A stretch of DNA of 12,778 nt, taken from assembly GCA_002792395.1 (NCBI GenBank), contig PFOG01000051.1, positions 1 through 12,778 of the forward strand, in the 5' to 3' direction. Within the stretch, counting starts at the first letter, position 1; each line of letters starts with the position of its first letter. Positions 10,249-11,946 of this stretch are shown piece by piece. The notes under the pieces are model-generated. The model searched no databases and was not told where the DNA came from. It saw only the letters and a list, made by a program, of their open reading frames with translations. The stretch comes from Candidatus Portnoybacteria bacterium CG_4_10_14_0_2_um_filter_44_20. GTDB taxonomy: Bacteria; Patescibacteriota; Minisyncoccia; Portnoybacterales; GCA-002795985. The position numbers were made by a program, and so were the translations under genes.

Positions 10249-11946
10249 TTAGAAATTCCGAGCTAAAAGCTCGGCGGTCTCCTCACCCACGTGCCTTATT
10301 CCTAGCGCGAATAAAAACTTGGCTAGGCTTATTCTCTTTGCTTTTTCGATCGCCTCCATCAGGTTTTCAGCCGACTTCTCGGCAAATCTTTCCATCGGCT
10401 CCAAGTCTCCTTTTGTCAGTTCAAATATGTCAGCCGAACTCGAGACCAATCCCTCGTTCATTAGCTGTTCAACAATTTTATCGCCCAGCCCCTCTATATC
10501 AAATCCTTTTTTCGAAACAAAATGAATTATCTTTTCCCGCTCAACCGCAAAGCATTTTTTATAGTGAGCGGGACGCTCACTCAAGCTTTGCTTATAACGA
10601 GCGGCACGCTCGATATATCGGGCATCCTGCCCGCTATTAAGGCAATAATGCGCCGCGCTTTCTTCCCCTCTCTTTCCGATTTTTATCTCTTCCCGCCTCA
10701 CCAAGCTACCGCAAATCGGGCAATGCGCCGGCATCTGAAATTTTTTTTCTTTTCCGGTTCGTAAATTTTTTAAAACTTCGATAACTTCAGGAATAACATC
10801 GCCCGCCTTATGGATGACAACTGTATCCCCGATCCGGATATCAAGCCGGTTAATTTCATCTTCGTTATGAAGGGTAGCCCGCGAAACCGTAGAGCCGGCC
10901 ACCGCAACCGGCTTCAAATGCGCCACCGGAGTTAAGGCGCCGGTTCTTCCAACCTGAACCTTAATATCCTCAACAACTGTCGTTACTTTCTCGGGAATAA
11001 ATTTATACGCGATTGCCCAGCGTGGCGATTTGCCAGTGTAACCAAGAACATCTTGCAATTTTTTAGAATTTATTTTGATAACCAAACCATCAATTCCATA
11101 TTCCTGTTTGTTTCTTTTTGGCGTCCACGACTGGAATAAGTCTTCGACTTCACCCAAATTGCGGCACAATCTATAATTTTTGTTCACCTTAAATCCAAGT
11201 TTCTCCAAAAACTCCAGCTCTTCAATTTGCGTCTCGGGAAATTCGCCCGCGATTTCATCAAGGTCGTAAATATAGGAATTAAGTTTGCGGCTGGCGGTTA
11301 TTTTTGGGTCCAACTGCCTGATGGAACCGGCGGCAACATTACGGGAATTAGCGAACAGCGGCTCGCCATTTTTTTTCCTCTCACGGTTGATTTCATCTAG
11401 GTCTTTTTTGCGCATCCAGCCCTCGCCGACAACCGTCAAATCAACATCTTTGGTTAATCTTAGCGGAACGCTTTGAATCGTTTTAATTTGCTCAGTAACG
11501 TCCTCGCCAACCGCTCCGTCGCCGCGCGTCGCGCCCCGCACAAACAAACCGTTTTCGTAGGCTAGAATAATTTTCAACCCGTCAATTTTAATCTCGCAAC
11601 AATATTCAAGCCCCTCCTTAATGCCCCGCTTCTCAAGCATCTTCAACACCCTTTCTTCCCAGGCCTTCGCTTCTTCAAACGAGAAGGCGTCATCCAGCGA
11701 CCACTGCCGGTGCTTATGCCGAACCTTCTCAAACTTTTCAAGCGGTTCTCCGCCTATTCTCTGGCTGGGAGAATCCAAACTTTTTAATTCGGGGCGTTCT
11801 TCTTCCAGGCCCCGTAGTTCACGCATCAACGAATCATAAACATCATCCGAAACCTCCGGCTTGTCGAGCACGTGATATTCATAGCGAAACCGGTCGATTT
11901 CCTTGCGTAATTTTTCTATTCTTTTTTGGGCTTCTTGTTCGGTCAT
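10249..11946 (-). CDS. ligA: NAD+-dependent DNA ligase, N-terminal part (catalytic core)
   Basis: It seals nicks in replication and repair using NAD+. The 565 residues cover domain Ia ([17 protein letters not shown], 23-39), the adenylation domain with catalytic K120 in KIDG (120-123), the OB fold ([12 protein letters not shown], 333-344), the Cys4 zinc finger (C409, C412, C435, C465) and the first part of HhH up to [19 protein letters not shown] normal LigA has about 670 residues; the rest (HhH end and BRCT) is in the next ORF, after an AT-rich insert. The third and fourth zinc cysteines are 29 residues apart instead of about 5, because a hairpin array is inserted in frame. A terminator-like hairpin lies only 17 nt upstream of the ATG. 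Confidence 0.93.
10562..10634. repeat. Array of 3-nt-loop hairpins inside the LigA zinc finger
   Basis: Four stem-loops in a row, each with a 3-nt loop: GTGAGCG/CGCTCAC (10564-10580), AAGC/GCTT (10583-10593), CGAGCG/CGCTCG (10598-10612) and CGGGCA/TGCCCG (10619-10633). The minus-strand units GAGCGtccCGCTC, GAGCGtgcCGCTC and GGGCAggaTGCCC differ by paired changes that keep the stems. They encode ERPAHYK, ERAARYK and GQDARYI. The span of about 73 nt equals the surplus between C435 and C465 (about 72 nt). Confidence 0.85.

Follow-up and report, generated by a model that had tools for sequence, protein, structure and literature searches.

The DNA analysed here most probably carries, inside its gene for the NAD-dependent DNA ligase LigA, members of a family of very small palindromic elements which is private to the source genome, has spread in it and is translated where length and frame allow. 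We assign this explanation a probability of about 0.8. The analysed stretch of 12,778 nucleotides, called the window below, is contig C72 of the source genome G000 (1.02 Mb, 219 contigs). Judged from its protein neighbours, the source organism is a member of the Patescibacteria. The nearest named records of LigA (P0006) and of the GxxExxY protein described below (P0248) are both labelled Portnoybacteria, those of Obg are labelled Patescibacteria (P0131) and then Portnoybacteria (P0151), and the remaining named LigA records are mostly Moranbacteria or Parcubacteria. The identity of the window LigA reached at best 56% in genomes of the same order as against 64% and 62% in some genomes of the same class. 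This may reflect an exchange of ligA between lineages. The features of the ligA region are listed in Table 1.

Table 1. Coordinates of the ligA features in the window.
Feature	Position	Strand	Remarks
LigA ORF 1, 565 aa	10249..11946	-	NAD-dependent DNA ligase: adenylation domain, OB fold, zinc finger, first part of HhH
LigA ORF 2, 147 aa	9699..10142	-	Remaining HhH domain and BRCT
AT-rich imperfect inverted repeat, 108 nt	10143..10250	.	Stop codons inside, splits ligA into two ORFs; seen by self-complementarity
In-frame insert, 75 nt, 25 codons	10561..10635	-	In the zinc finger, separating Cys435 from Cys465; lacking in 119 of 120 listed homologues
21-nt unit 1	10615..10635	-	Hairpin 10619-10633, 6 bp, 3-nt loop
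21-nt unit 2	10594..10614	-	Hairpin 10598-10612, 6 bp, 3-nt loop
33-nt unit	10561..10593	-	Hairpin 10563-10581, 8 bp, 3-nt loop

The LigA sequence was compared with the best 120 of 8000 scored homologues. The third and fourth cysteines of the zinc finger, between which the insert is located, are spaced as C-x4-C in 119 of these 120 proteins and as C-x29-C in the query only. An earlier note on this DNA had described C435 and C465 as 29 residues apart where about 5 were expected. The enlargement was borne out, with 29 residues between the two cysteines instead of 4, while the distance itself is 30 positions (codons 10644-10642 for C435 and 10554-10552 for C465). The surplus, estimated there at about 72 nt, is in fact 75 nt long and lies between residues N437 and K463. 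Upon translation it would form a 25-residue loop in the predicted finger. At this place close relatives read YCLN followed by KKC, KEC or KNC (e.g., YCLNKKC).

The earlier note had named a long palindrome-free insert in all close relatives as the sign of an old protein feature. The closest listed relatives (P0002-P0012, 76-83% identical) instead have the normal C-x4-C spacing. Loop length does vary in LigA of this type, but it is extremely improbable that the insert is an ancient structural feature of this family and not a DNA element, since the insert site (442) is used once among the 120 listed proteins, by the query itself, and close relatives lack the insert. Among the best 120 of 8000 homologues this origin was refuted. 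The string composed of flank and repeat unit was located in the window, and in the source genome GGGCANNNTGCCC was found in ligA alone; consequently, the unit 1 core is not repeated exactly at any other place. Structure models had low confidence at the finger both for LigA with the insert (10-residue means of 24-48 from residue 441 on) and for the insert-free relative P0002 (means of 32-55 over residues 441-530), so that no conclusion on the finger was drawn from them.

Hairpins in ORF 1 were defined by a stem of at least 6 bp and a 3-nt loop. Besides those of the insert, the ORF contains one extra hairpin at its far end (10258-10274). Three hairpins within 75 nt occurred in none of 5000 codon-order shuffles of the ORF, which contained 0.40 hairpins on average and 4 at most. 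The folding z-score of positions 10535-10665 was a modest -2.4, and 6 of 200 shuffles folded equally well. Four stem-loops with 3-nt loops had been proposed for this array; three of them are strong, but the fourth (CAAAGCTTG, 10582-10590) is weak with 3 bp only. Likewise, a unit length of about 21 nt holds for two of the three units but not for the third. At the gathering threshold, Rfam detected two tRNAs in the window and no other match, hence none at the ligA insert.

Five 21-nt units were compared for paired base changes. Seven of the 10 stem pairs are invariant, two are changed on both sides (A-T to G-C) and the tenth deviates through unpaired cells only; pairing was found in 96% of the cells. 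The proposal that paired changes preserve the stems is supported by the covariation score (0.240, matched by 7 of 500 shuffles, with slid versions reaching at most 0.114) but gains nothing from the count of double-change pairs, which 260 of 500 shuffles matched. Covariation support for the 21-nt stems appears moderate. The 33-nt units of ligA and obg show two differences, located at bases which pair with each other (G-C to A-T).

The repeats were counted in the whole source genome, as the earlier note had proposed. They proved to be a DNA element dispersed over the genome, and two further conserved genes carry it in frame. BLAST of the region against its own genome revealed 25 places including that in the window. 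The hairpin core GAGCGNNNCGCTC, allowing at most one mismatch, gave 66 matches per strand compared to 14 in the reversed control, and exact copies occupy at least 50 distinct places, two of them in ligA. Most copies represent a dispersed, often tandem 34-nt form. Excluding ligA and duplicate loci, and judging extragenic status by ORF overlap only, 25 of the 36 clusters listed are outside every stop-to-stop ORF of at least 110 aa, and 11 overlap such an ORF, partly at its ends. Among the 38 distinct copies that passed the upstream filter (those failing it being left out), 36 end with ..GCTCAC-AAT, with a 34-nt period in arrays. The other two, in ligA and obg, end with ..GCTCAC-TAT.

The 21-nt form follows the pattern TATA-N-CGNGC-N5-GCNCG-N and repeats at TATA. 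Eleven matches to this pattern were found on both strands, compared to 0 in the control; 10 of them are in ligA, C115 and C136, and the eleventh, with one mismatch, is in C29. Units related to ligA unit 2 are located at C115:12849-12894 and C136:153-179, and shorter versions adjoin the 34-nt form at C136 and C99. The unit ends are TATA/TATA or TATT/AATA, and in the AT-rich flanks a target duplication, which together with terminal inverted repeats defines a MITE, is ambiguous. The family was not found in 22 relatives of the same order (23 genomes with the own one, none closer than order). Eight further genomes gave no match at E ≤ 0.1, three of them giving matches only at E values of 0.14-0.98. 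A same-species allele from before the insertion was not seen. The age of the family would be bounded only by protein relatives at about 80% identity.

The array could also have arisen locally within ligA, by slippage or template switching at a hairpin and without a mobile element. The two 21-nt units of ligA are indeed tandem and alike, their 34-nt cousins occur in tandem arrays, and no transposase is linked to the family. However, a purely local origin is unlikely, because obg, which lies on a different contig, has a near-identical 33-nt unit and the GxxExxY gene has related 21-nt units. In a hybrid route, which may apply, arrival of an element would have been followed by local expansion. For the dispersed family, units would join and insert at TATA/AATA-rich sites, with mobility perhaps provided by hairpin processing on single-stranded DNA.

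The obg gene (L002, C131) contains one 33-nt unit in frame which adds 11 codons. Of 120 listed homologues, 119 have 21 aa in the corresponding Obg segment; only P0121, an own-species variant with 2 differences from the own protein and with the insert kept, has 32 aa. In the HMMER alignment of Obg an 11-residue gap falls at this place in the solved chains 5m04 and 4csu. Similarly, a GxxExxY/PDDEXK_3 nuclease-like gene (L032, C115) carries two 21-nt units in frame (42 nt, 14 additional codons). Here the segment measures 17 aa in all but one of the 120 listed homologues; the exception, with 31 aa, is P0241, an own-species variant with 3 differences and the insert kept. One of these two variants has a change inside the insert. 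Outside the subject of the insert, the GxxExxY protein (L032:1362-1865) has Ala where P0241 has Glu within the stretch I-E-I-K-C-K, which we take to be a possible E-x-K catalytic site.

Each of the inserts in ligA, obg and the GxxExxY gene is stop-free in the frame of its gene and an exact multiple of codons in length. The 21-nt units of ligA and of the GxxExxY gene are read in different frames. Four of six frames are open through the 42-nt insert in tandem, and three of six through the 33- and 75-nt inserts. After removal of the inserts in silico, the joined flanks of ligA and obg both contained TAATAAAAAAT, which hints at a shared target, with two sites only. Two genes of C26 (L016 and L017, near 1501) contain the 34-nt form at the same place, and the frame changes across it. 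Both look like GIY-YIG nucleases, as recognised by eye, and both appear to be frameshifted by the element. Thus, the frame is preserved in three of the five gene insertions that allow a judgement and apparently lost in the other two, and insertion seems not to be guided by frame. Selection after insertion explains this mixture, and no frame-seeking mechanism is needed. Copies in essential genes would survive only if their length and frame allow the protein to be read through and a loop is tolerated at the site. What looks like a further in-frame copy adds 19 residues to a 121-aa ORF at C42:1449 (L004), for which no Pfam family match was obtained.

Alternatively, the ribosome might skip the hairpins, or they might be excised from the RNA, like the untranslated palindromes of yeast mitochondrial genes for which the excerpt of PMC6649704 provides a precedent. 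The hairpins do lie within conserved genes, and without such a process neither the split ligA nor the two apparently frameshifted genes could be read as a whole. Bypassing, however, does not require inserts to be in frame and stop-free, as all three homologue-checked ones are, and we regard it as very unlikely.

The AT-rich repeat which splits ligA is 73.6% self-complementary over 106 nt and sits at a LigA loop (core sites 547-555) where 37 of the 120 listed proteins have inserts of at least 6 residues. One could conclude that ligA is decaying and that the finger insert is a further disabling event; the stop at 10249, the second ORF at 9699-10142 and the enlarged cysteine spacing are in line with this. 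On the other hand, ORF 1 is open over its 565 codons and 76-83% identical to the closest listed relatives, the window ligA is the sole LigA match in the source genome, and the insert-bearing obg and GxxExxY ORFs are likewise open. Furthermore, in 12 of 119 relatives the protein terminates at a distance of 18-21 residues from where the same motif RH(V/I)GEETA begins (query, 15), although contig ends may contribute to this number. Decay of ligA is therefore improbable.

Inserts of at least 6 residues were mapped in the 120 listed LigA proteins. The main core sites were 111 (41 proteins), 239 (45), 429 (54) and 547 (27). Many of these loop inserts look like translated dispersed repeats. For one of them, in L092, there is some support at the DNA level, from recurrence that is local and not wide. 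The insert of L092 matched only one of six genomes, its own, at 4 places including itself; all are on the ligA contig, and by their coordinates two of the other three are inside the same ligA. Strict hairpins (at least 6 bp, loop of 3-6) were present in the hot-spot inserts of one of four loci examined, L096, and absent from those of L091, L092 and L093. Inserts of at least 6 residues were rare in Obg (3 of 120) and in the GxxExxY protein (1 of 120), own variants included. Consequently, LigA is unusually permissive.

Tentatively, and at somewhat less than even odds, the Patescibacteria with this LigA type (named records mostly Moranbacteria) may be undergoing a lineage-wide insertion of tiny palindromes and other short repeats into core proteins. 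LigA loops would then be permanent landing sites, with four hot spots, and the modular, TATA-joined 21-/33-nt element, whose units are whole numbers of codons and open in several frames, would be tolerated in essential genes and even in a metal-binding knuckle. The present case concerns very short coding palindromes in essential genes of a distant, uncultured lineage with small genomes. With 120 listed homologues, few insertion-tolerant loops and many different inserts, the LigA family is a natural experiment that opens to testing how selfish DNA turns into protein sequence. It also calls for caution, as protein loops in this group may be recent DNA repeats and not evolved structure.

Several known systems resemble the family. 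Small dispersed repeats of cyanobacteria have units of some 20-27 nt, are mobile and are sometimes intragenic. Protein-coding palindromes are described as rare and best known from Rickettsia in the excerpts of PMC6649704 and PMC10969869. According to the latter excerpt, the Rickettsia palindromic elements (RPE) measure about 150 bp, are often in frame in genes and form several families in one small genome. The parallel to RPE, drawn in the earlier note, is sound for the mode of action, as palindromes are inserted in frame in unrelated protein genes (here ligA, obg and GxxExxY). It does not extend to size: compared with RPE by description, 21-/33-nt modules add 33-75 nt here, in a distant phylum. 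With lengths of 33, 42 and 75 nt and different reading frames, the inserts differ from RPE also with respect to a conserved encoded peptide.

With REP/REPIN sequences (REPIN background in the excerpt of PMC3116915) the family shares hairpins of 20-40 nt, many copies and a mainly extragenic location (25 of 36 clusters). The excerpt of PMC6006769 reports REPs that sit in frame within tnpA-REP genes as well as REPs inserted into unrelated genes. The 34/33-nt family, in contrast, is not located at a cognate RAYT gene (C204 and C138 loci), and none of its 38 listed copies has a GT[AG]G foot adjoining the stem. In mitochondria of Nematomorpha, inverted repeats coexist with functional coding sequence; according to the excerpt of PMC6649704 both arms encode conserved native residues there, whereas the palindromes of ligA, obg and GxxExxY are extra sequence. 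Among the open-access matches listed, titles and abstract openings contained no report of in-frame palindromes in Patescibacteria, and an open-access search for Moranbacteria together with DNA ligase found no literature.

A Y1 transposase was considered as the mover of the 34/33-nt family and rejected, as proximity was not observed: the Y1_Tnp loci of C204 and C138 contain no GAGC-N5-GCTC hairpin. The Y1_Tnp match in C138 is in pieces, and around that in C204 another palindrome, GGACGTC, is found. This IS200-like gene (L125:1243-1986) also contains the GGACGTC palindrome in frame (KSLDVRRPK), with more copies around, in likeness to REPs in tnpA-REP genes.

In-frame palindromic or repeat-like stretches were also noticed in other genes of the source genome. 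A prepilin peptidase gene (L133:611-1654, C11) has palindromic stretches, and its A24_N Pfam match falls into two stretches, the best of which begins just before a CPHC motif. A glycosyltransferase gene and a B12/radical-SAM gene (L035:9-1436 and 1636-3081, C135) have repeat-like stretches reading ..RHAELVSASHEIPKQ.. and ..LPSSDEEGN... Hairpins inside ORFs were counted against codon shuffles, with ORFs called mechanically from stop to stop, so that the counts are only indicative: 10 compared to 3.6 in 20 sampled contigs of the source genome, 7 to 1.6 in G058, 11 to 1.8 in G007, 12 to 1.6 in G057, 5 to 2.0 in G033 (equal to the highest shuffle) and 3 to 2.2 in G053.

Further repeats are present in the window. 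A 22-nt tandem repeat with TTACCAGGTAA palindromes is located at 12612-12693 upstream of a small ORF. Upstream of the tRNA gene at 702-777, its first part is repeated twice, incompletely and in direct orientation, at 226-255 and 349-406. Finally, a perfect inverted repeat lies between genes at 7651-7687; its arms are 18 nt long and its cores are GAGAACCGTTCTC. Similar palindromes occur at L125:1087 and L035:30.
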